A stretch of 47,137 nt of DNA, taken from assembly GCF_000384655.1 (NCBI RefSeq), contig NZ_ARQI01000108.1, positions 1 to 47,137 on the forward strand, written 5' to 3'. The notes under the pieces are model-generated. The model was not told where the DNA came from, did not search any database, and was given only the letters and a program-made list of their open reading frames with translations. The translations under genes were made by a program, and so were the position numbers. The DNA is from Brachyspira innocens ATCC 29796. Lineage in GTDB: Bacteria; Spirochaetota; Brachyspiria; Brachyspirales; Brachyspiraceae. Every line of letters starts with the position of its first letter. Within the stretch, counting starts at the first letter, position 1. Shown one piece after another: positions 22,291 to 47,137 of this stretch.

Positions 22291-22610
22291 AAAAACACCT
22301 CAAAATTAATTATATTTTATATTAAATAAAAAACAATATATACATAAAAAAATATGGTTTGTCAAAAATATATTTTTAAATTTTAGTTATTTGTGGGGAC
22401 TAGCCTCACATGTCATACTTCTTTTGTGATACTGTCCGCCTTCGGTGTGACACATACGAAGTACGCCTCACTCTGTGTGCCGTAGGCAGGCGAGAACCAA
22501 AAAGACTGCATTTTTAGCCTAAATTTCTAATATTACCATACATTTAATACATATCTTTAAAATATAAAGTTTTAGTAATTGCGTTTTTCGCTCTGCGTGC
22601 CTTTGGCAAA

Positions 22611-22635
22611 AACTTTTTTGTGCGTCAAAAAAGTT
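22611..22635. repeat. Palindromic element with CAACTTTT/AAAAGTTG-type arms
   Basis: AACTTTTTTG and CAAAAAAGTT are perfect inverted repeats around TGCGT. Similar arms occur at 24018-24041 and 32450-32510. Confidence 0.7.
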
Positions 22636-22689
22636 GATAATTCTATATAAAGTGCATCCGTTGACAAAATAAAATCGTTCCAGTATAAA
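22629..22689 (+). repeat. Promoter-bearing intergenic repeat, copy A
   Basis: About 60 bases nearly identical to 32503-32563. It starts AAAAGTTGATAATTCTATAT and contains TTGACA (22661-22666), a 17-base spacer and TATAAA (22684-22689). No plus-strand gene follows this copy. Confidence 0.75.
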
Positions 22690-22707
22690 TTACCATCGAT
22701 GCTGTAT

Positions 22708-23688
22708 TTATCTCAATCCATATTGATTTTGAATATTTTTTATATTTTCTCTAGCTTCATCGTTGTTAGGGTCTAATTCCAAAGCCTTTTTATAGTCTTT
22801 TAAGGCATCTTTATACTGTCCTAAATCGCTTTTAGCATTTCCTCTGTTATTATAAGTTTCACCATAATATGGATAAAGATCTATAGCTATATCAAAATCT
22901 TTAATTGCTTCTTCATATAGTCCTAATTTCTTTTTAGCTAATGCTCTATTATTAAAGCTAGGCATATCATTAGGATTTAATTCTATAGCTTTATTATAAT
23001 CTTTTATAGCTTCCTCATACTCTCCTAAAGCACTTTTAGCATTTCCTCTGTTGTTATAAGCAGCTAGATAATTAGGATTTAACTCTATAGCTATATTATA
23101 ATCTTTTACTGCTTTTTCATACTGTTTTAAATTATATTTAGATACCCCTCTATTATTATAAATATAGTAGCTATTAGGATCTAGTTCTATAGCTATGCTA
23201 AAATCTTTTATTGCCTCCTCATATTGTTTTAAAATATTTTTAACATTGCCTCTATTATAGTAAGAATCAGGATCATCAGGATTTAACTCTATAGCCTTAT
23301 TAAAATCTTTAATTGCTTCTTCATATTTTCCTAAAACCTTTTTAGTATATCCTCTTTCTAAATAAACATTGCTTTCATTATTGTTTAACTCTATAGATAC
23401 ATCATAGTCTTTGATGGATTCTTCATATAATTCTAAATTGCCTTTAGCCAAACCTCTATTATAATAATAATCGCTATGATTAGGGTTTAGCTCTATAGCC
23501 TTGTCAAAATCTTTAACTGCTTCTTCATATATCTCTAAACTATTTTTTAATATACCTCTAGCATTGTAATATTTTGATTGGCTATTATCAAATTTTATTG
23601 CTTTATCAAAATATTCTAAAGCTTCTTCGTATTTTCCATCTTTATAATAATTAATACCTTCTTCATAATATTTTTCTGATGATAACAT
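22708..23688 (-). CDS. Tetratricopeptide-repeat protein
   Basis: About 326 residues made almost entirely of about nine 34-residue TPR units with the pattern YxNRGxxKxxLxxYEEAIKDFxKAIELNPN. There is no signal peptide or other domain, so it is probably a cytoplasmic protein-interaction scaffold; partners are unknown. The ATG at 23688 and an in-frame GTG at 23700 are both possible starts, and neither has a clear ribosome binding site. The near-identical repeats suggest recent internal duplication. It lies in the repeat-rich region with no operon partner. Confidence 0.85.
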   Translation of the reverse strand: MLSSEKYYEEGINYYKDGKYEEALEYFDKAIKFDNSQSKYYNARGILKNSLEIYEEAVKDFDKAIELNPNHSDYYYNRGLAKGNLELYEESIKDYDVSIELNNNESNVYLERGYTKKVLGKYEEAIKDFNKAIELNPDDPDSYYNRGNVKNILKQYEEAIKDFSIAIELDPNSYYIYNNRGVSKYNLKQYEKAVKDYNIAIELNPNYLAAYNNRGNAKSALGEYEEAIKDYNKAIELNPNDMPSFNNRALAKKKLGLYEEAIKDFDIAIDLYPYYGETYNNRGNAKSDLGQYKDALKDYKKALELDPNNDEARENIKNIQNQYGLR

Positions 23689-23828
23689 ATTAGCACTCAC
23701 AATATTTTTTATTATAAAAATAATATATTTTATTTTTTAGTATTTTCAAGTTGTTATTATTTTAAAATACACTTTTTATTTTAATTTGCAATTATAATTT
23801 TTTATTAAAAAATAATTTATAAAATCAT

Positions 23829-26262: not shown

Positions 26263-26591
26263 AATTGCAAAACCTTTTATTTTATATTTTTAGTAAACAT
26301 AACAAAGTTTACATAATTATAAATATAATGTCAATAACTATTATTTTGTTTTTTATAATTATTATTAGTTTTTAGTGCATACTTAAACAATTATAATATA
26401 TCAAAAATAAAATCATATTTTGTTTTTAATATCTGGGGCTTTGCTGCGAAGCATACAGTCATGCCAAACCCCACTTCTTTTGACGAAGCCAGCCACTCTG
26501 CGTGCCGTAGACAAGTGAAGGGGGAAAAGAACAATAAAAAATTGACAAACTTAAAAATTTTTAGTATATCTTTATTTATTTTAATATTATA
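26263..26591. other. Intergenic region with GC-rich repeat core
   Basis: About 330 bases. Bases 26431-26525 form a GC-rich island in otherwise A/T-rich DNA, flanked by CCCCACTTC and GAAGGGGG and containing CTCTGCGTGCCGTAGACAAG (26496-26515), a member of the dispersed core family. No ORF. Confidence 0.6.
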
Positions 26592-32414: not shown

Positions 32415-32673
32415 TTATTTTATTAAAAGTATTTGTCAATTTTTTTATTCAACTTTAGGCCAATCCCCCCAGTCTGTGTGCCGTAGACAAGCGAGTGCGG
32501 AAAAAAGTTGATAATTCTATATAAAGTGTATTATTTGACAAAATAAAATTGTTACAGTATATAATAATATAACTATATACAAATTTTCAACATGTATAAT
32601 AAATAAAATCCTAATTGCATTTGGCTTTTTATCGATAATGAAAACGATACATATTATACTATGGAGTAATCAA
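32415..32673. other. Intergenic region with palindromic element and promoter repeat
   Basis: About 260 bases. It contains inverted arms CAACTTT (32450-32456) and AAAGTTG (32504-32510) around a GC-rich core with TCTGTGTGCCGTAGACAAGC, followed directly by promoter-bearing repeat copy B. Confidence 0.7.
32503..32563 (+). repeat. Promoter-bearing intergenic repeat, copy B, upstream of the GerMN gene
   Basis: It matches 22629-22689 over about 60 bases. TTGACA (32535-32540), a 17-base spacer and TATATA (32558-32563) form a likely promoter 110 bases before the GerMN gene; TATAAT at 32560-32565 is an alternative -10. Confidence 0.75.
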
Positions 32674-38140: not shown

Positions 38141-38344
38141 ATGAATATTGATAAATTAGAATATAAAGAGTTTTTATTAAAGTCTATTTTTTATGATATA
38201 GACAGCATTATTTCATTTTTGAGTGAAAATAGTGAAATTTGTCAGAAGTTTTTTTGTCATTTAAAAAATAAATTTGATAAATTAAGTGTTGATTATGATG
38301 AAGTATTAAACACTGTTTCTAAAGAACTGGAATCTATTATTTAA
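38141..38344 (+). pseudogene. Degenerate N-terminal (HD-region) fragment of cas10
   Basis: A 67-codon ORF in exactly the same frame as the main cas10 ORF, ended by TAA at 38342-38344. The following 32 codons stay open and encode KALKSIFTVFKEINNKNLYY, which resembles the Csm1 segment directly after the HD domain, so this fragment is the remaining N-terminus of Cas10. The usual HD domain is about 100-150 residues with His-Asp and further His residues; here FYD may stand where LHD or LHN is expected, and no other HD motif residues are seen. There is no ribosome binding site before the ATG. It could be real and leaderless, or dead. Confidence 0.6.
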
Positions 38345-38440: not shown

Positions 38441-40423
38441 ATGATAGGAGATAATATAGTATATCCTGATGATTTTAATAAAATAAATAATTCCTATTTT
38501 TTAAATGATGAAAATAGAAAGTATATTGAAAGCTTAAATTTTGAAAAAATATTAAATGATGCTAATATTATATTAAATGTTCTTTCAAATATTCTTTCTT
38601 ATGTACCTTATTATAAAAGCGAAAAAGAATATGGCATAGGCGATATATCTTTTTATGATAAATTAAAAATTAACACGGCATTATCTTCTTGTTTATATCT
38701 ATTAAAAAATAATTCAGAAGAAAAAGAAAAACCTTTTGCTTTACTTGCAGCAGATATTTCAGGTATACAAAGCTTTATATATACTATTTCTTCTAAAGGG
38801 GCATTAAAATCATTAAGGGCAAGATCTTTTTATCTTGAAATAATGCTTGAGCATATCGCTGATGAAATATTGGAATATTTTAATCTAAAAAGATGCAATT
38901 TGCTTTACACAGGCGGCGGTCATTTTTATATTTTAATTCCTAATTTTAAAGATTTAAAAGAGAACATACTTTCTATTAAAAATAAAATAAATGATTGGTT
39001 TATAAAAGAGTTTTCTGTAGATTTGTATATAGCGATGGATTATGAAGAGTTTTCTTTTAATGACTTGAAAAATACAAAAAATATATTTAGAGGTCTTTCA
39101 AAAAAACTGTCTGTTAATAAGCAAAATAGATACAATAAAGAACAGTTAAATATCTTATTGTTTCCTAGAGAAAATGAAGCTGATTTTGAATGCAGTATAT
39201 GTAATACTTCTTCTAAAAGCACAAAAGAAAGAAATGAAAATTTAGGTTATGTATGTGATACCTGCTATAATCTATATAAAGCAGGCAAATATATAATAAA
39301 TGAAAATAATAGTATCACTATTACAAATACAAAAAATAATTTAGATAAAGAAAAAATTATTAATCTTCCTTCTATTTCTGAAAATAGATATTTATATTTT
39401 GGAAGTATAAATTCTGAAGATAGTTCTGTGATAAGAATATATTCTAAAAATAACAGTAATGATAAACATATTAATTTGTATTTAGGTGATTATAATTATA
39501 AAAAAGATGATAATGTAGATTTAAGCAGTTTTGAAGATCTTTTAGAAGGAACTTATGGTATAAGGAGAATAGGTGTATTAAGATGCGATGTAGATAATTT
39601 GGGTCAGGCTTTTATTAATGGATTTAAAGACCATTCTGATATTTTTAGAACTTCTGTTTTATCAAGACATTTAAGCTTATTTTTTAAGTATTATATCAAT
39701 TCAATATGTAAGGGTGATGTTCAGTTTCCTAATAATAAATTGTTTGGTGATAAATATTATCATAAAGAAAAACATGTTGTTATAGTTTATTCAGGCGGAG
39801 ATGATGTATTTTTGGTTGGGTATTGGCTTGATGTTATAGATTTTGCTTTTGATTTGAGAAAGGCTTTTAAAAGATATACTAATGATAAATTGACTTTCTC
39901 AGCAGGTATAGGCTTTTTTCATTCATCATATCCTATATCTAAAATGGCTTCTCAAACTGGAGAGCTTGAAGAGCTTGCTAAAAATCATATTTATAATAAC
40001 AAAGAAAAAGATTCTATAGCTTTATTTGGAATACCTTTTAATAAAAAAGAATCTAATTTTGAATATTGTTTTAATTGGCAGGAGTTTGATAAAGTTCGTG
40101 AAAAAATAAACATTATATTTTCTACTTGCTATCTTGATGAGAAATATTTTTGTGAAGATAAAGTATTTTTCTCTGCTTCATCTATTTATAGATTAAAGCA
40201 ATTAATAGAACTTGAAAGTTTGAAAGGGGATAAAATTAATATTGCAAGGCTTGCTTATTCTCTTGCAAGAATAAAATCTGCTGGAAGCGATGATTATATT
40301 AAGAATTATGAAAGTTTTAAAAATAATATTTATAATTGGTTTTTGGATAACGCAGATAGAAGATATTTAAATACTGCTTTAGATTTAATATTATATTTGA
40401 AAAGAGACGATTCTAATAAATAA
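38441..40423 (+). CDS. cas10: Type III-A CRISPR effector large subunit Cas10/Csm1, N-terminally reduced
   Basis: A 660-residue protein with two Palm/cyclase domains. The first contains ALLAADISGIQSFIY and ALKSLRARSFYLEIMLEHI; a zinc-ribbon has Cys251, 254, 272 and 275. The second Palm has RCDVDNLGQAF and the catalytic GGDD at 452-455, so cyclic oligoadenylate synthesis from ATP should be possible once target RNA is bound. The HD nuclease domain is missing from this ORF. Homology begins at about 38375, upstream of this ATG, which itself lacks a ribosome binding site; the true start is unclear because an in-frame TAA lies at 38342. Confidence 0.92.
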   Translation: MIGDNIVYPDDFNKINNSYFLNDENRKYIESLNFEKILNDANIILNVLSNILSYVPYYKSEKEYGIGDISFYDKLKINTALSSCLYLLKNNSEEKEKPFALLAADISGIQSFIYTISSKGALKSLRARSFYLEIMLEHIADEILEYFNLKRCNLLYTGGGHFYILIPNFKDLKENILSIKNKINDWFIKEFSVDLYIAMDYEEFSFNDLKNTKNIFRGLSKKLSVNKQNRYNKEQLNILLFPRENEADFECSICNTSSKSTKERNENLGYVCDTCYNLYKAGKYIINENNSITITNTKNNLDKEKIINLPSISENRYLYFGSINSEDSSVIRIYSKNNSNDKHINLYLGDYNYKKDDNVDLSSFEDLLEGTYGIRRIGVLRCDVDNLGQAFINGFKDHSDIFRTSVLSRHLSLFFKYYINSICKGDVQFPNNKLFGDKYYHKEKHVVIVYSGGDDVFLVGYWLDVIDFAFDLRKAFKRYTNDKLTFSAGIGFFHSSYPISKMASQTGELEELAKNHIYNNKEKDSIALFGIPFNKKESNFEYCFNWQEFDKVREKINIIFSTCYLDEKYFCEDKVFFSASSIYRLKQLIELESLKGDKINIARLAYSLARIKSAGSDDYIKNYESFKNNIYNWFLDNADRRYLNTALDLILYLKRDDSNK

Positions 40424-40448
40424 AAATTAGTAATTTTTAGGAGGTATT

Positions 40449-40814
40449 ATGCTTAATATCAGTGATGCAGAAAAATTTGTAAAAGATGAAAAGATTAATT
40501 ATATTACAACATCTCAAATAAGAAAATTTCTTGCTGCTGTAAATAAAATTTCAAATATGGTAAAGTTATCTGATATATCTGAAGATAAATTAGATAATAA
40601 TATTATTGAAGAAATAAAATATATGCAAATTCAGTTCGCTTATTTAGTTGGTAAAAGCAAAGGTACAAAAACAGAAAGGCAAATGAAAAGTTTATATGAT
40701 TTACTTAAAGATGAAATGTCTAATTTGCATACAAAAAAAGATTTTATTAATTTTGCTAGATATATAGAGGCTATAGTAGCTTACCATAAATTTCATGGAG
40801 GAAGAGAACAATGA
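40449..40814 (+). CDS. csm2: Type III-A effector small subunit Csm2
   Basis: A 121-residue all-helical protein. The ITTSQIRKFLAAVNKI segment near residues 19-34 and YLVGKSKG...LYDLLKDEM are characteristic of Csm2, which lines the groove of the Csm complex along the crRNA-target duplex. It has a perfect AGGAGG before the ATG, and its stop overlaps the csm3 start. Confidence 0.95.
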   Translation: MLNISDAEKFVKDEKINYITTSQIRKFLAAVNKISNMVKLSDISEDKLDNNIIEEIKYMQIQFAYLVGKSKGTKTERQMKSLYDLLKDEMSNLHTKKDFINFARYIEAIVAYHKFHGGREQ

Positions 40815-41542
40815 GCAGCAAAAATGTTTTTTATACAATTAAAGATAAATTAATAATAAGATCTAATATAAAACTATTAACTGGTATGCATATAGGAGCT
40901 TCTAATGACTTTTCTCCTATAGGTGCTGTTGATAGTATTGTCGTTAAAGATCCATTGACCAACAGACCTATTATACCTGGTTCTTCTATTAAAGGTAAAT
41001 TAAGAACTATGATGGCTAAACTTATGTCTGATAATATGTTTTTGCCTAGTCATGAAAATGATAAAGAAGAGGTAAAAAGATTATTCGGTTCTTCTGTGAA
41101 AGATAATATAGTAGAAGCAAGACTTCAGTTTTATGATTTGTTTTTAAAGAATGCTGAAGAATTAGAAAAAAAGAATTTAGATTTAGGATATACAGAAATA
41201 AAGTTTGAAAATAGAATAGATAGAATAATAGCAAAAGCTACACCTAGACAATTAGAAAGGGTACCTGCAGGAGCCATATTTGGATTCAAACTTATATATA
41301 ATGCTGATAATAGCGGAAATGAAAATATTATTAAAGATTTTAAGTTAATATCTAATGCAATAAAGGCTTTGCAGTTGGATTATATAGGAGGAAGCGGAAC
41401 TAGAGGTTATGGTAAAATTAGCTTTGAAAATTTTACTATAGAAAAGGCTAATCTTAAATCTAATGATATAGATTTAGCTTCTTTGTTAAAATATTTACAA
41501 GAAAGTGAAGATTTTGTTAATAAATTAATAAAAAATAAATAG
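40811..41542 (+). CDS. csm3: Type III-A backbone subunit and target-RNA nuclease Csm3
   Basis: A 243-residue RAMP protein (Cas7 group). The N-terminal strand ends LLTGMHIGAS, followed by SPIGAVDSIVVKDP with Asp41 in the position of the catalytic Asp (Asp33 of studied Csm3), and by the RPIIPGSSIKGKLR loop typical of the family. The C-terminal GGSGTRGYGKISF glycine-rich loop is also present. Csm3 subunits cut target RNA at six-base intervals. Its ATG overlaps the csm2 stop by four bases. Confidence 0.96.
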   Translation: MSSKNVFYTIKDKLIIRSNIKLLTGMHIGASNDFSPIGAVDSIVVKDPLTNRPIIPGSSIKGKLRTMMAKLMSDNMFLPSHENDKEEVKRLFGSSVKDNIVEARLQFYDLFLKNAEELEKKNLDLGYTEIKFENRIDRIIAKATPRQLERVPAGAIFGFKLIYNADNSGNENIIKDFKLISNAIKALQLDYIGGSGTRGYGKISFENFTIEKANLKSNDIDLASLLKYLQESEDFVNKLIKNK

Positions 41543-41550
41543 TTGTTATT

Positions 41551-42525
41551 ATGGAATATAAATTATATAAATTAAAGTTTGATACTCCTGTCCATTTTGG
41601 AAGTGATAAATTGGCTGTGAGTTTGGAAGAGTCAGATTTTATATGTCATAGTGATACATTATTTTCTGCTTTATGTTTGGAATATATTAAATTAAATAGT
41701 GCTGAAAACTTATCTAAATTTGTGGAGCTGTTTAATAATGGAGAACTTTTAATATCTTCTTTGCTTCCATATAAAGATGAAGATTTGTACATTCCAAAAC
41801 CTTCTATAGTAGTAGAAAGAGATAATAAAAAAGATGATAAAACAGATTCTTCTTCAGATAGAAAAAAAATGAAGAAACTTGGATTTATTAAAGTTTCAGA
41901 CTTGGATAATTATTTAAAAAGTATTAAAGGCGAGCATGACTTTAATTTTAACAGTATGGAATACAACAAATTTTCTAATGAATATTTATTTCAAAAAGTA
42001 TCTTTGTCAAGAACAGAAGAAAATAATTTGTATAGTATGGGTGTACATTATTTTTATGATAAATGCGGACTATATTTTATATTAGCTTATAATAATAAAA
42101 CCAATTTAGATATATTTGAACAAATTTTCAAAAGTTTGTCATACTCTGGAATAGGCGGCAAAAGAACTTTAGGTTACGGCAGTTTTACATTAATAAATGA
42201 TAGCAGCAGTATTTCTGATATTAATAAGTATTTATTTAAAGATTCTAAATATAAAATGATTTTATCTTTGTATTCTCCTTGTGAAAATGAGATTGAAAAT
42301 ATTGATTTTAACTCCTCATACTATTCTATTATAAAGAGAAACGGTTTTATATATTCTCAAACATACAGTAGTACTCTTTTAAAAAGAAAATCTTTGTGTA
42401 TGTTTAAAGAAGGTTCATGCTTTATTGGTGATATTAAGGGTGATATAAAAGATGTATCTCATGCTTCAGGAAGTCATGAAGTTTATAGATATGGCAAGGC
42501 TTTATATATTGGTATTAATATTTGA
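41551..42525 (+). CDS. csm4: Type III-A effector subunit Csm4
   Basis: A 324-residue RAMP protein (Cas5 group) that caps the crRNA 5' handle and contacts Cas10. The start LYKLKFDTPVHFG and SDTLFSALCLEYIKL are typical. The glycine-rich loop GIGGKRTLGYGSFTL lies near 203-217 and a C-terminal VYRYGKALYIGI follows. It starts eight bases after csm3 with only a weak ribosome binding site, suggesting coupling. Confidence 0.93.
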   Translation: MEYKLYKLKFDTPVHFGSDKLAVSLEESDFICHSDTLFSALCLEYIKLNSAENLSKFVELFNNGELLISSLLPYKDEDLYIPKPSIVVERDNKKDDKTDSSSDRKKMKKLGFIKVSDLDNYLKSIKGEHDFNFNSMEYNKFSNEYLFQKVSLSRTEENNLYSMGVHYFYDKCGLYFILAYNNKTNLDIFEQIFKSLSYSGIGGKRTLGYGSFTLINDSSSISDINKYLFKDSKYKMILSLYSPCENEIENIDFNSSYYSIIKRNGFIYSQTYSSTLLKRKSLCMFKEGSCFIGDIKGDIKDVSHASGSHEVYRYGKALYIGINI

Positions 42526-42535
42526 TGGTGATAAT

Positions 42536-43720
42536 ATGAATAATAATTTTAAAATAAATAATAGAAAAGTTTATAGAATGAGTCTCACTACATTATCTCC
42601 AATATTTATAAATAGCGGAGATATTTTTAGAAAAACGGATTATATATATAAAAATAGAATAGTTAGCGTTATAAATAAAAAAAAATTAATATCTGTTTTA
42701 GAAGAAAATAATAAATTAGATACATTTTTGGGAGAATGTGTTTCAGGAAATTTTAAACTTACTGCTTTTTTAGAAAAAAATATAAATAATTATTCATCTT
42801 TAGATATTTTTGACTATAGTATTAAAACATATAGTGATATGCAGGCAGAGAGTGCAGAAAATATAGAAATAGAATCTGATAACAAAGAATTAAATGATAT
42901 ACAGCCTTTTATAAAATCTTCAAATAGGTTGCCATATATTCCCGGTTCTAGTATTAAAGGAGCTATTAGAACAGCAATTATTTATGGTGAAGTAATGAAT
43001 AATAAAGAGAAATATGTTTATTTATTTAGAGATATTCTTAAAACTGAAAAAAAATATAATTTTAGAGATATAGAAAGTGATATATTAAAAAAGAAACTTA
43101 ACCTATTCAAGAATATGTCTATATCAGATACAAATGAGGCTGAACTTGATAATTTATATATTTCTCAAAGATATGATGTAGTAACATCTGAAAATACATA
43201 TCATCCCTTGCCAATATTTCTGGAAGTATTAAAGCCTGGTGTCAAATTATACTTTACCCTTAGTATAGATAAACCATATAGTATATATTCTTTATTAAAG
43301 TATTTTAGCGGTATTTATAATAATAAAGAAGATAATACATTTTATAGTGATTATTTAACTTTGTCTGCTCTTATTCAGGAAAATATTCTAGATAAATATC
43401 CTTTATTTGATGATTCATTAAATATGACTCCTAATATTTTTATAGGAGGAGTAAATGGGTTTTTAACTAAAAGTATAATATATTCTATTAGAAAAACATC
43501 AAATTATTCTTCTCCGATAAAAATTAAAGAATTAGTAAATTATATAAAGAAATACCTCGATTATCAATTTTATGATAAAGAAAATAAGATGCCTAAAGGC
43601 AGGCATGTAATATTAGATGATAAAATATCGCCTAGAAGTTTGAGACTTGTAAAAAAAGATGAAGATAATCTTATTGCACTTGGAATGTGCAATATTAAAG
43701 TTGAAGAGGAATTATGCTAG
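42536..43720 (+). CDS. csm5: Type III-A effector subunit Csm5
   Basis: The start at 42536 is preferred because the protein then begins with the RAMP strand YRMSLTTLSPIFINSG and GGTG lies just upstream; a longer frame would overlap csm4. The 394-residue product has the SNRLPYIPGSSIKGAIRTAI loop near 130-149 and a charged C-terminal half. Csm5 caps the 3' end of the crRNP and recruits crRNA-trimming nucleases. Its end overlaps the start of cas6 by seven bases. Confidence 0.93.
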   Translation: MNNNFKINNRKVYRMSLTTLSPIFINSGDIFRKTDYIYKNRIVSVINKKKLISVLEENNKLDTFLGECVSGNFKLTAFLEKNINNYSSLDIFDYSIKTYSDMQAESAENIEIESDNKELNDIQPFIKSSNRLPYIPGSSIKGAIRTAIIYGEVMNNKEKYVYLFRDILKTEKKYNFRDIESDILKKKLNLFKNMSISDTNEAELDNLYISQRYDVVTSENTYHPLPIFLEVLKPGVKLYFTLSIDKPYSIYSLLKYFSGIYNNKEDNTFYSDYLTLSALIQENILDKYPLFDDSLNMTPNIFIGGVNGFLTKSIIYSIRKTSNYSSPIKIKELVNYIKKYLDYQFYDKENKMPKGRHVILDDKISPRSLRLVKKDEDNLIALGMCNIKVEEELC

Positions 43721-44499
43721 CAACTTTAATCATTAAGATGAAACCTAGAGATAATTTGGTAATAAAAAAAGATTACGGCAGTTTGTTTCATGGTTATTTG
43801 ATGTCAAAATTAGATGCTGATTATGCTGAAACCCTTCATAATCTGTCACTTAATCCTTATAGTCAGTATTCTTATTTTGACAGTAAAAATAATATCTATA
43901 TATGGAAAATATCAACATTAAGTAAAGAAGCTAAAGAAAAAATAATAGATAAGTTATTTGATGAGAATATAAGTTCTTTTAGTTTAACATACAATGATTT
44001 GAAAGTTGATATTATCTCTAAAGAAATAGTTAATGTGCAAAGTTATAAAGATATTGCAGATAAATATTTTTTATCTAATGATATTATACGAAGTGTTAAT
44101 ATAAAGTTTTTAACTCCTACCACTTATAAAATACATAGACGTTATACTATATTTCCTTATTTGGATAATATGTTTATAAGTCTTTATGATAAATGGAATT
44201 ATTACAGTGAAAATATTTCTTTAGAAGATAGTAAATTGATTTCTGATATGGAAAAATATGTGAAAATAGTAAAATATAATTTGAGAAGCACAAAGTTTAG
44301 TATGGAAGGCGTTGGTATTGATTCTTTTATAGGAGAAATAAAACTTTACTGCCATGGTCCTAGTATGTTTGTAAATATTTATAATATGCTTTTGGATTTT
44401 GCATCTTATTCTGGTATAGGGGCAAAAACTTCTCTTTCTATGGGAGGAGTTTTGATATCAAGACCTTATATTGAAAAGATGAAAAACAATATTTATTAA
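43714..44499 (+). CDS. cas6: CRISPR repeat endoribonuclease Cas6
   Basis: A 261-residue double-ferredoxin-fold protein. SLFHGYLM near 23-30 supplies a candidate catalytic His26, and the C-terminal glycine-rich loop FASYSGIGAKTSLSMGG is the Cas6 hallmark. It processes the array transcript within repeats. Its ATG overlaps the csm5 stop, with GAGGA upstream. How it copes with the enlarged repeat loops in this array is an open question. Confidence 0.9.
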   Translation: MLATLIIKMKPRDNLVIKKDYGSLFHGYLMSKLDADYAETLHNLSLNPYSQYSYFDSKNNIYIWKISTLSKEAKEKIIDKLFDENISSFSLTYNDLKVDIISKEIVNVQSYKDIADKYFLSNDIIRSVNIKFLTPTTYKIHRRYTIFPYLDNMFISLYDKWNYYSENISLEDSKLISDMEKYVKIVKYNLRSTKFSMEGVGIDSFIGEIKLYCHGPSMFVNIYNMLLDFASYSGIGAKTSLSMGGVLISRPYIEKMKNNIY

Positions 44500-44523
44500 A
44501 TAAAAATATTTTGGAGTTTATTT

Positions 44524-45855
44524 ATGAATGATAATCAGAAAAAAAAATATATATTATTTTCGCCAGTTGGTACTCATGACCCTATAGGTATTTCAAAAGA
44601 TAAAACAAAAGTATCAGAAGGTTCTATGCTTCATATAATTAGGCATTATAAACCTGAAATAGTTTATTTATATGTTACCAAAGAATTAAATAAAAATGAT
44701 AATAGATATAAAATAGCTATAGAAAAATTTCATCCTGAATGCAAAAAAGTAGAAGAGATATACGGTAAAGTTGATGATGTTAATAGCTATGATGCTTTTA
44801 TAGATGAGTTCAAAAATTGCATAAAAAATATTAATGATACTGATAATAAAAACGGAGAGTATGAGATTCTTTTAAATATATCTTCAGGAACTCCTCAGAT
44901 GAAATCAGATTTGGTTCTTGAGGTTATAACAAATAATATTTATTTAACTCCGATACAAGTATCCACTCCAGAAAAATCATCAAATTTTCCAGATAATTTT
45001 AGTTTTGATTTATTAGATAAAATAGATATAAATAAAGAGGAAAATGATATAAGATGTACTGTTCCAGAAGTTTTAAGTTTTAGAAGGGTGAAAATTCAAT
45101 CACAGATAGAATCTTTGGCAGAAAGGTATGAGTATTCATCAGCTTTAACTTTGATTAATAATGATGAAAGGTCAAAAAAATTATTTAGTGATGATTTAAT
45201 TAAATATTTAGAGCATGGGGCTTTAAGAATGAATTTGCAGTATGATAAGGCAAATGAAATAATAAAGCTGGATGAAAAAAATTATAATAATGAATGCATT
45301 GAGTTTATTGAATATTATTATGTTATGAAGATTAAACAAAGTAAATCAGAACTTTCGGATTTTATTTTGAGAATGAGTCCTTTCCTTACTTTTATATTAT
45401 TCTATTTTTTAAGAAAAAATGTAGCTGCTTTAAATAGAGTTTTGGAAAATATAAACGGAGATAAAAAAATTAGAGTAAATGCAAGTCCAGACCAGAACTT
45501 TATTGATTATATGAATAAAAGAGTTAAAAATCTTCAGGATGGGGATTTTATTACTTTTTATATTTTAATTTCTATGTATGATTTTTATGTTAAAAAGAAT
45601 CAGAAACTTAATACTATTATAGGTAAAAAATTACTTGATGAGCTTAGAGCTATAGAAAGAGAAATAAGAAATGATGTTGCTCATAAAATGATTAACATTG
45701 ATGAGGATTTTATTAAATATAAGGTAAAAATGTCTTCCAAAGATATATTATTAAAATGCGAAAAAATATTAAAATCAGTTTTTCCTGAATTTGATACTAA
45801 TTATTTCGTTTATGATGATATTAATAAGAGTATAAGAGAGGTATTACAGAAATAA
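44524..45855 (+). CDS. csm6: Cyclic-oligoadenylate-activated ribonuclease Csm6 (CARF-HEPN)
   Basis: A 443-residue protein. The N-terminal CARF domain starts ILFSPVGTHDPIG and contains SSGTPQM at 120-126, the usual cOA-pocket loop. The C-terminal HEPN domain carries the RxxxxH ribonuclease motif RNDVAH at 382-387. It is expected to degrade RNA non-specifically when cyclic oligoadenylate made by Cas10 binds. GGAG lies upstream of the ATG. The intact GGDD of Cas10 and the intact HEPN motif here indicate a working signalling branch. Confidence 0.93.
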   Translation: MNDNQKKKYILFSPVGTHDPIGISKDKTKVSEGSMLHIIRHYKPEIVYLYVTKELNKNDNRYKIAIEKFHPECKKVEEIYGKVDDVNSYDAFIDEFKNCIKNINDTDNKNGEYEILLNISSGTPQMKSDLVLEVITNNIYLTPIQVSTPEKSSNFPDNFSFDLLDKIDINKEENDIRCTVPEVLSFRRVKIQSQIESLAERYEYSSALTLINNDERSKKLFSDDLIKYLEHGALRMNLQYDKANEIIKLDEKNYNNECIEFIEYYYVMKIKQSKSELSDFILRMSPFLTFILFYFLRKNVAALNRVLENINGDKKIRVNASPDQNFIDYMNKRVKNLQDGDFITFYILISMYDFYVKKNQKLNTIIGKKLLDELRAIEREIRNDVAHKMINIDEDFIKYKVKMSSKDILLKCEKILKSVFPEFDTNYFVYDDINKSIREVLQK

Positions 45856-45860
45856 ATATT

Positions 45861-46337
45861 ATGAGAAGGAATTTATTAACTTTTATAGGTTTGACAGATA
45901 TAAAAACACATGAAAATAAAGAGTATAACGGAGCAGTAGAGCAGATACTGAGTAAATATGATTTTGAAAATGTTTATGTTTTTATAACATTAGGTTTGGA
46001 AAATAAAATTAATGAACTTAATATGATTGAAAGATATAAAGAAAGTTCTAAAAGTAATGTTATATCTGTTTATACAAAAATAGATGATCCTACTAATCCG
46101 AGATTAATTTATAATAAACTTAAAGAACATATTGAAGAGATTAATATTAGCACCAAAAATATAGAAGGCGAACTTTATGTAAATATGGTATCATCAACAC
46201 CGCAGATAATATCGATTTTGTCGCTTTTTGTAGGTGGTAAGGCATTGTATAATTCTATAGGTGTTTATCCAAGTAATCCTTTATATGGCGAGAGAATAAG
46301 ACTTGATGATTTGGATTTTTTTAGAGAGATAATTTAA
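45861..46337 (+). CDS. CARF-like protein without effector domain
   Basis: A 158-residue protein just six bases after csm6, in the same operon, with no separate ribosome binding site. It resembles a lone CARF domain: an initial hydrophobic strand LLTFIGLTD, a YVFITLGL strand, and VNMVSSTPQIISIL at about 107-120, which mirrors the NISSGTPQM loop of Csm6. There is no HEPN, nuclease or DNA-binding domain. It might bind or degrade cyclic oligoadenylate (ring-nuclease role), regulate Csm6, or be a truncated Csm6 duplicate. The assignment rests on pattern and position only. Confidence 0.65.
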   Translation: MRRNLLTFIGLTDIKTHENKEYNGAVEQILSKYDFENVYVFITLGLENKINELNMIERYKESSKSNVISVYTKIDDPTNPRLIYNKLKEHIEEINISTKNIEGELYVNMVSSTPQIISILSLFVGGKALYNSIGVYPSNPLYGERIRLDDLDFFREII

Positions 46338-46360
46338 TATTTTTTAATTTATAGAAATGA

Positions 46361-46390
46361 AAAGAGGCTTATAAGGCCTCTTTTTTTGTT
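46361..46390 (+). terminator. Terminator of the cas operon
   Basis: AAAGAGGC (46361-46368) pairs with GCCTCTTT (46376-46383), followed by a T run, 24 bases after the last cas-associated gene. It separates cas transcription from the array. Confidence 0.9.
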
Positions 46391-46438
46391 TAAATAAAAT
46401 TTAATCAATGAAAACTCTTGATTATTAATCTGTCCCCC

Positions 46439-46463
46439 ACGTAGTGCCTATGGCACGAAGTGT
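46439..46463. repeat. GC-rich insertion in CRISPR repeat 1
   Basis: About 25 bases between CCCCC and GGGAATTG, containing the short palindrome GTGCCTATGGCAC and ending AGTGT. The 5' part of this repeat is also degenerate, as expected for a terminal repeat. Confidence 0.75.
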
Positions 46464-46530
46464 GGGAATTGATTTTAAAAACGGATTCAAACAATATTAA
46501 TAACACTACAGTAGAAAAGTTTTCGTCCCC

Positions 46531-46566
46531 CTACGAGCCGTTAGGCGAAGTGCCTACTTGGGGTGT
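46531..46566. repeat. GC-rich insertion in CRISPR repeat 2
   Basis: 36 bases replace the GGTG loop; the repeat is 67 instead of 36 bases. The insert starts CTACGAGCC, contains GCGAAGTGCCTACTTGG and ends GTGT. It shares order and wording with the insert at 46706-46752. Confidence 0.85.
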
Positions 46567-46705
46567 GGGAATTAATTTTAAAAACTAGGAAGTGCATGTT
46601 TTGATGTAGATTATCTAATAAGTTTTCGTCCCCGGTGGGGGAATTGATTTTAAAAACTGATATATTCAGTGGAAAAGAAAATAAAAAACTATTGTTTTCG
46701 TCCCC

Positions 46706-46752
46706 TACGAGCGTAGCGAAGTACCTACTTGGTTACGAGCGTAGCGCAGTGT
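46706..46752. repeat. GC-rich double insertion in CRISPR repeat 4
   Basis: 47 bases replace the GGTG loop; the repeat is 79 bases. Two tandem units, TACGAGCGTAGCGAAGT (46706-46722) and TACGAGCGTAGCGCAGT (46734-46750), lie 28 bases apart. The flanking CCCC and GGGG arms remain intact. Confidence 0.85.
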
Positions 46753-47137
46753 GGGGAATTGATTTTAAAAACTCGCTTATATCGTCTAACTAAATTTTCA
46801 TTAAAAATGTTTTCGTCCCCGGTGGGGGAATTGATTTTAAAAACTTGTTCTATTCGCTTGTATGGGCTTACAGTTTTAGCGTTTTCGTCCCCGGTGGGGG
46901 AATTGATTTTAAAAACAAGGGGGTAGTCCATGAAAAACAACAACACTATAGAGTTTTCGTCCCCGGTGGGGGAATTGATTTTAAAAACTTATATCACTCG
47001 CTTTAGTTTTTCTAAAGTAAGATGTTTTCGTCCCCGGTGGGGGAATTGATTTTAAAAACTTTGATGGCACAGATAAAGAATCGGTTTTATTTAAGTTTTC
47101 GTCCCCGGTGGGGGAATTGATTTTAAAAACCTTATGG

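Follow-up and report, generated by a model that had tools for sequence, protein, structure and literature searches.

Type III-A CRISPR arrays of Brachyspira carry GC-rich inserts at the hairpin tip of their repeats, by which old repeats are stretched to 2-4 times the normal length. The enlarged repeats are real and occur in every III-A genome of the genus that was examined. The repeats of a CRISPR array are commonly regarded as invariant; repeat length spans 35 to 154 nt inside a single Brachyspira array (contig C96 of genome G020). The window, a stretch of 47,137 nt with such an array at its right-hand end, is the entire contig C108 (NZ_ARQI01000108.1) of the 3.28-Mb genome of Brachyspira innocens (G000). 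Its features are listed in Table 1, in which the minus strand of the array features is the inferred direction of crRNA transcription.

Table 1. The type III-A operon and the CRISPR array of the window.
Feature	Coordinates	Strand	Remarks
csm1/cas10 (type III-A)	38441-40423	+	open frame starting at profile position 147
csm2, csm3, csm4, csm5	40449-43720	+	
cas6	43714-44499	+	Pfam PF10040 over cut-off; NCBIfam TIGR01877 at 54.2 bits, just below cut-off of 58.65
csm6 (CARF-HEPN)	44524-45855	+	
csm6-like CARF fragment	45861-46337	+	36.7 of 150 bits, below family cut-off
repeat 1	46430-46482	-	trailer-most; left part decayed; hairpin-enlarged; 53 nt by our count
repeat 2	46519-46585	-	67 nt; 31-nt insert (46531-46561) between CCCC and kept loop GGTG (46562-46565)
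repeat 3	46622-46657	-	standard, 36 nt; flanked on both sides by enlarged repeats
repeat 4	46694-46772	-	79 nt; composite stretch 46706-46753
five more standard repeats with spacers	46809-47130	-	starts at 46809, 46881, 46953, 47024 and 47095; reach contig end

The standard repeat of the window array (36 nt; repeat 3 and five others) reads on the plus strand GTTTTCGTCCCC, the loop GGTG and GGGGAATTGATTTTAAAAAC. The preliminary description had reported that repeats 1, 2 and 4 are enlarged, each at the same point, and both statements are confirmed: the lengths are those of Table 1, and the inserts start directly after CCCC, at the hairpin loop. The outer halves of the repeat, thought to be preserved throughout, are kept in repeats 2 and 4, but the left part of repeat 1 is not. 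In repeat 4, the composite stretch consists of one module (46706-46732) and a partial second copy (46733-46753), and the loop GGTG is no longer recognisable. The eight spacers of the array are intact, as had been noted (36, 36, 36, 36, 36, 36, 35 and 35 nt). The words shared between the enlarged repeats are real (17 nt at 94%), which agrees with the earlier view that the inserts are related and did not arise from random damage.

The array begins about 90 bases beyond a III-A operon in the order csm1-csm2-csm3-csm4-csm5-cas6-csm6, followed by the csm6-like fragment (38441-46337 in all). The type III-A assignment is based on the Cas10-containing csm1-csm5 operon adjoining the array, on the hairpin directly before an 8-nt tag, ACGAAAAC, which is read as such from the tag pattern of other III-A systems, and on the regular spacers. 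The reverse complement of the standard repeat ends in GGGGACGAAAAC, presumably resembling the III-A repeats of Staphylococcus and M. tuberculosis, and from this resemblance the window array is most likely transcribed leftward with its leader at the right, on the side that falls outside the window. A right-hand leader agrees with an AT-rich flank common to contig C86 of the same genome and to G025, as well as with the position of cas1-cas2 on that side of the G020 array. The III-A system of the window genome may be in decay, since the N-terminal part of csm1 is broken (the whole-genome match begins at 38297 and contains one TAA) and the only cas1 found in the genome is of type I-B. Csm1 is free of stops in G002, G020 and G022. 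A comparison of positions 45800-47137 with Rfam gave no match at gathering score and 14 weak ones, 12 of which were to CRISPR-DR families. When the window array and a portion of the G020 array were compared with phage records, the protospacer matches listed had E values of 0.05 or worse, with another 73 of the 88 records, some at 95-99% identity, beyond those listed. Elsewhere in the window, a gene at 22708-23700 contains at least seven tandem units of 102 nt (34 aa) and probably encodes a helical repeat protein.

An exact-pattern search of 26 Brachyspira genomes found 21 enlarged repeats in six genomes and 34 standard repeats in four, while the reversed control pattern had no match in the same genomes. 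In a tolerant parse of 12 arrays, 28 of the 67 intact repeats were enlarged; this count leaves out the five decayed repeats of G023, which all carry AT-rich palindromes, a single isolated repeat of standard length in G025, and about 18 half repeats, located almost without exception at the ends of contigs or at the trailer end. Csm1 scored over the cut-off in five of the 26 genomes, and an enlarged repeat was present in all five, B. alvinipulli ATCC 51933 being one of them. G025, with no Csm1 over the cut-off, has a two-repeat relict array in which both repeats are enlarged, and G018 has a further III-A relict carrying inserts. Named records with the same enlarged repeats belong to B. alvinipulli ATCC 51933 or uncultured Brachyspira, and because B. 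alvinipulli is a cultured strain, the enlargement is not a metagenome artefact. The assembly of the window genome comprises 130 contigs, with the arrays reaching contig ends, which might point to assembly error or slippage; this explanation is highly improbable, however, as related inserts occur in independent assemblies, including that of B. alvinipulli ATCC 51933, and the inserts are no tandem duplications of the repeat.

Beyond Brachyspira, the pattern was a weak probe because it was tuned to the Brachyspira repeat: seven of 11 matching stretches in genome contigs were from Brachyspira after all, and the other four, one of them inside an ordinary CRISPR array, appeared chance-like by eye. 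No stretch matching the enlarged-repeat pattern was found in viral contigs. The preliminary description knew of no described case, and a literature search covering titles and abstract openings, mostly outside subscription journals, likewise found no report of inserts in CRISPR repeat loops and, within the same titles and abstract openings, nothing on palindromic repeats of Brachyspira. Two Brachyspira genome papers, as far as their accessible text goes, mention CRISPR once each, without repeat detail.

The site of insertion is exact. In the 28 enlarged repeats among the 67 intact ones, the insert lies between CCC(C) and GGG, a result that is partly by construction because the parse demanded both repeat halves; no spacer between intact repeats was lengthened by 20-60 nt. 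Insert families found at this one point are unlike each other (M1, module A and AT-rich palindromes), with modules of roughly 22-46 nt, mostly GC-rich, and composites of up to 124 nt. The loops differ by array (GGTG, TTAC, TCAC, TTTC, CTTC and TCGC), and the loop word of the own array (GGTG, TTAC, TCAC, TTTC or TCGC) stands at the insert edge in about half of the cases: 10 of the 21 enlarged repeats of arrays also holding standard ones (2 of the 21 pairs are orthologous copies), against a mean of 0.45 and a maximum of 4 in 5,000 shufflings, and nine of 16 in a smaller run. The remaining 11 of the 21 have no such word beside the insert. Six of the 10 kept loops are 3' of the insert on the plus strand (M1-type inserts) and four are 5' of it (module A, AGCTCCGTACCGGAGTGCTTCGCA). 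Since the latter position is the 3' side on the other strand, both orientations may follow a single rule, insertion 5' of the loop in either hairpin. The boundary beside the loop is mostly CCTACTYGG and the other boundary is variable, with no clear target duplication by eye.

The earlier impression that inserts crowd the trailer, or old, end of the array was borne out across arrays: within-array permutation reached the observed rank sum in none of 200,000 trials, with the right side taken as the leader in all arrays and with the proviso that neighbouring repeats may not be independent or may share ancestry. A cas1 of non-I-B type adjoins arrays in G002, G020 and G022, and the leader-proximal repeats there are all standard. 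Arrays still acquiring spacers would thus keep their leader-proximal repeats short, which suggests that new units are short and that inserts accumulate as repeats age. The window genome has a second array, divided between contigs C41 and C86 with a 37-nt overlap of their ends, and all four of its intact repeats have inserts, the leader-adjacent one included; the intact repeats of G025 are likewise all enlarged up to the leader. These arrays also fit the copying of an enlarged repeat at spacer uptake. Separately, eight array regions of G002, G020 and G022 contain an inverted half repeat, ATAATGAGTTTAAAAAC, close to the leader side.

The same trailer gradient would result from loss rather than gain, if III-A repeats were ancestrally long and the 36-nt form arose by deletion at the leader end, and the presence of enlarged repeats in all five genomes with Csm1 over the cut-off would agree with this. 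We consider loss unlikely. Unlike families occupy the same point, the window, G020 and G002 C9 have standard repeats flanked by enlarged ones, and the same insert stands beside different kept loops in different arrays. A search for sister arrays with an empty site at the same spacers, in line with the alignment of sister strains proposed in the preliminary description, found none among the 26 genomes.

The inserts are mostly bound to arrays. The preliminary description had taken them for a generally dispersed repeat, with relatives at three intergenic sites of the window (22471-22494, 26496-26520 and 32472-32495), a view that the wider search does not uphold. Those sites form a family of their own, and the inserts of repeats 2 and 4, C86 and C41 have no 11-mer in common with 203 kb of their own genome in which those sites are included. 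The inserts of other species have a few 11-mers in common with the same 203 kb, at or somewhat above the shuffled level. An insert word matched eight times in the window genome, always in arrays (seven intact repeats and one decayed trailer repeat of C41), and 18 times in the 26 genomes (16 in arrays and two outside), while all seven matches of module A in the 26 genomes were in CRISPR repeats. The M1 core model, built from 12 array inserts that match by construction, gave 17 matches in the 26 genomes at E ≤ 0.03 (16 in arrays and one outside) and 20 at E ≤ 0.25 (17 in arrays and three outside); 150 candidates were scored per genome, and the many matches at E 0.33-0.88 were taken as chance. 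The word CCTACTTGG gave no support to a dispersed-repeat origin in the window genome either: about 603 kb sampled from G000 and G002 contained two matches, compared to a mean of 1.0 and a maximum of 9 for 60 permuted words.

A few dispersed kin of the inserts were found in other species (G009 and contigs C3, C15 and C37 of G022). A small number of GC-rich mosaics bearing the motif CACCTACTTGGTG lie between genes in G009 and G022, and on account of this motif the modules may have entered arrays from GC-rich intergenic elements. In the window, intergenic GC-rich mosaics of the CTCTGYGTGCCGTAGRC family are located at 22466-22503, 26491-26528 and 32467-32504, two of which lie close to conserved AT-rich sequence (22627-22692 and 32501-32566), and similar mosaics occur in G022 and G009.

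One core (CC-AGTAGG, invariant in 12 chosen sequences) recurs in G000, G025, G002 and G022, where it occurs in different arrays, with different loops and in repeats of two types, and this core, together with the mostly constant loop-side boundary, would suit a CRISPR-loop-specific miniature mobile element that takes the hairpin as its target and is moved in trans by some transposase or nuclease. Such an element nevertheless appears rather unlikely, with no Y1 transposase match in the genus, a variable far boundary, few copies outside arrays and no clear target duplication. Transposition of the Y1/RAYT kind was rejected because none of the 26 genomes gave a PF01797 match, whereas five of 14 control genomes were positive. 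RNA-templated insertion by a reverse transcriptase beside the cas1 of G020 was also rejected, the neighbour being an iron alcohol dehydrogenase, followed by cas1 and cas2.

Composites point to exchange of modules between repeats. The arrays of B. alvinipulli C7 (G002) and G020 C96 have in common two spacers, a stretch of 292 nt that bears a gene, and a 107-nt insert, and one repeat common to both holds 124 nt in one of the arrays but 76 nt in its counterpart. By eye, the additional ends of the 124-nt version look like the ends of neighbouring repeats, and units therefore seem to recombine among repeats. The 292-nt stretch lies between two enlarged repeats (G020 C96, L109 3247-3538; G002 C7, L107), and its small ORF has an apparent ribosome-binding site of its own; it looks like a gene carried in spacer position. 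An 89%-identical relic is present in G018 C26 (L210 ~656-955), and other long, apparently gene-bearing stretches occur between III-A-like repeats in G022 C7 (L111/L212, 857 nt) and G025 (L024, 1520 nt).

Of 30 enlarged repeats folded, 29 are predicted to keep the CCCC/GGGG base stem; the one with the 107-nt insert does not. When the inserts were folded by themselves, 25 of 30 had z values between -2.0 and +0.7 relative to shuffled sequences, mostly no better than these. As insert z values are mostly unremarkable, what justifies the label hairpin module is the AT-rich inserts at the trailer and the inverted repeat seen in module A. Cleavage by the Cas6 enzymes of hairpin repeats takes place at the base of the stem, and the 3' repeat portion of type III crRNAs is trimmed away; given the predicted base stem, enlarged repeats probably still yield crRNAs.

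Type I-B arrays of the genus provide a comparison. None of 253 I-B intervals was enlarged, all being 65-69 nt; 239 of them are from genomes without a III-A array found, so that the control within a III-A genome is small (14 intervals, G018). The I-B arrays of G009, G014, G015 and G001, in which no Csm1 scored over the cut-off, contain 242 repeats, with 238 of 238 intervals at 65-68 nt. The array of G018, which has a III-A relict with inserts, contains 15 repeats and 14 intervals of 67-69 nt, and G017 contributes one interval. I-B typing is based on an adjacent cas1 over the I-B cut-off for three arrays, and on a partial cas1 below the cut-off for the fourth (G001). Predicted folding energies were -0.6 to -2.2 kcal/mol for I-B repeats versus -8.0 and -9.2 kcal/mol for III-A repeats. 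The lack of enlarged intervals in these weakly folding arrays suggests that a strong hairpin is needed, and the inserts, which are site-specific, are probably tied to strong repeat hairpins.

AT-rich palindromes are found in trailer-most repeats of G000 C54 (L023 ~1555-1615), G002, G020, G022 and G023, some of them common to several species (CTCAAACTG...CAGTAAG and TAAGTCAATTT...TTGACA). In several half repeats of G022 the left half is absent or replaced, and an element of about 120 nt (CCGCACC...TATAGGTGCGG), recurrent at the trailer repeats of this genome (L113 ~1460-1990 in C22; L212 1-130), seems to have replaced left halves. The sharing of the same palindromes by trailer-most repeats of several species, along with the conservation of the M1 core across species, would be in line with a selected function, in which enlarged repeats serve as terminators, processing signals or regulatory RNAs at the array end. 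This is quite unlikely, however, because enlarged repeats also occur in mid-array and leader-adjacent positions and the inserts mostly fold no better than shuffled sequences.

The best explanation, to which we give about an even chance of being correct, is hairpin-triggered insertion with shuffling of modules among repeats, tolerated by a permissive loop. The CCCC/GGGG hairpin tip of Brachyspira III-A repeats would be a permissive landing site, beside whose tetraloop short modules (roughly 22-46 nt) may have been inserted many times and then merged and shuffled among repeats into the longer composites. As the favoured route of arrival, repair or template switching triggered by the hairpin, host repair or replication would act at the extruded hairpin without a dedicated transposase: a stalled polymerase, or a cut 5' of the loop, could be followed by template switching that copies another hairpin. 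Tolerance would follow if Cas6 reads the stem base and the tag ACGAAAAC rather than the loop, in which case enlarged repeats should give usable crRNAs. The loop would thus be the target because it can be cut as DNA and is dispensable as RNA. As a bolder reading, which we put forward only tentatively, a tiny selfish hairpin family may live almost only in CRISPR repeat loops, parasitising immune memory and passing between arrays and species; its members would insert beside the loop of a strong hairpin and go unnoticed since Cas6 and crRNA function ignore the loop.

Very small elements that insert into the loops of structured RNA genes are known among the small dispersed repeats of cyanobacteria. 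The CRISPR locus of M. tuberculosis is one that we take to be type III-A with a CCCC-loop-GGGG repeat, the same general type as in Brachyspira. Closest in behaviour to the Brachyspira inserts are the GC clusters of yeast mitochondria (PMC4478555) and IS6110 in the repeats of M. tuberculosis (PMC7708916). Yeast GC clusters are short GC-rich palindromes in an AT-rich genome that undergo fast substitution, merging and shuffling, and their mechanism of spread is given as unresolved (PMC4478555). The Brachyspira inserts also merge and shuffle, as seen by eye in the composites and the C7/C96 comparison. GC clusters are described there as mostly intergenic with a putative target duplication, AG (PMC4478555), whereas most Brachyspira copies were found in CRISPR repeat loops, with no clear duplication, and lack the dispersed intergenic location of such elements. 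IS6110 interrupts the direct repeats of M. tuberculosis, which it leaves split; unlike the Brachyspira inserts, which enlarge the repeat hairpin, it is a 1,355-bp insertion sequence with a 3-bp duplication and is also found in spacers and csm6 (PMC7708916). Hairpin elements of sponge mitochondria independently invade non-coding DNA of related species as free single or multiple hairpins, intergenic with a few in rRNA genes (PMC2800124), while the Brachyspira inserts are nested in the loop of a CRISPR hairpin. REP elements are palindromes of 20-40 nt, in some species inside larger palindromes, and differ in being high-copy and often near tyrosine transposase (RAYT) genes (PMC3733652). The 26 Brachyspira genomes have no PF01797 match for a Y1 (HUH) transposase, and many dispersed intergenic copies were not found in the window genome (insert-word matches in arrays only; 203-kb sample).

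Standard CRISPR callers would probably miss or split such repeats. If the interpretation is true, the enlarged repeats would serve as a natural experiment on the parts of a type III repeat that Cas6 cleavage and spacer uptake depend on. The arrays would also hold a roughly dated record of insertions, with array order as the clock, and the repeat loop would provide a rare clean target for studying the entry of short palindromes into DNA hairpins.
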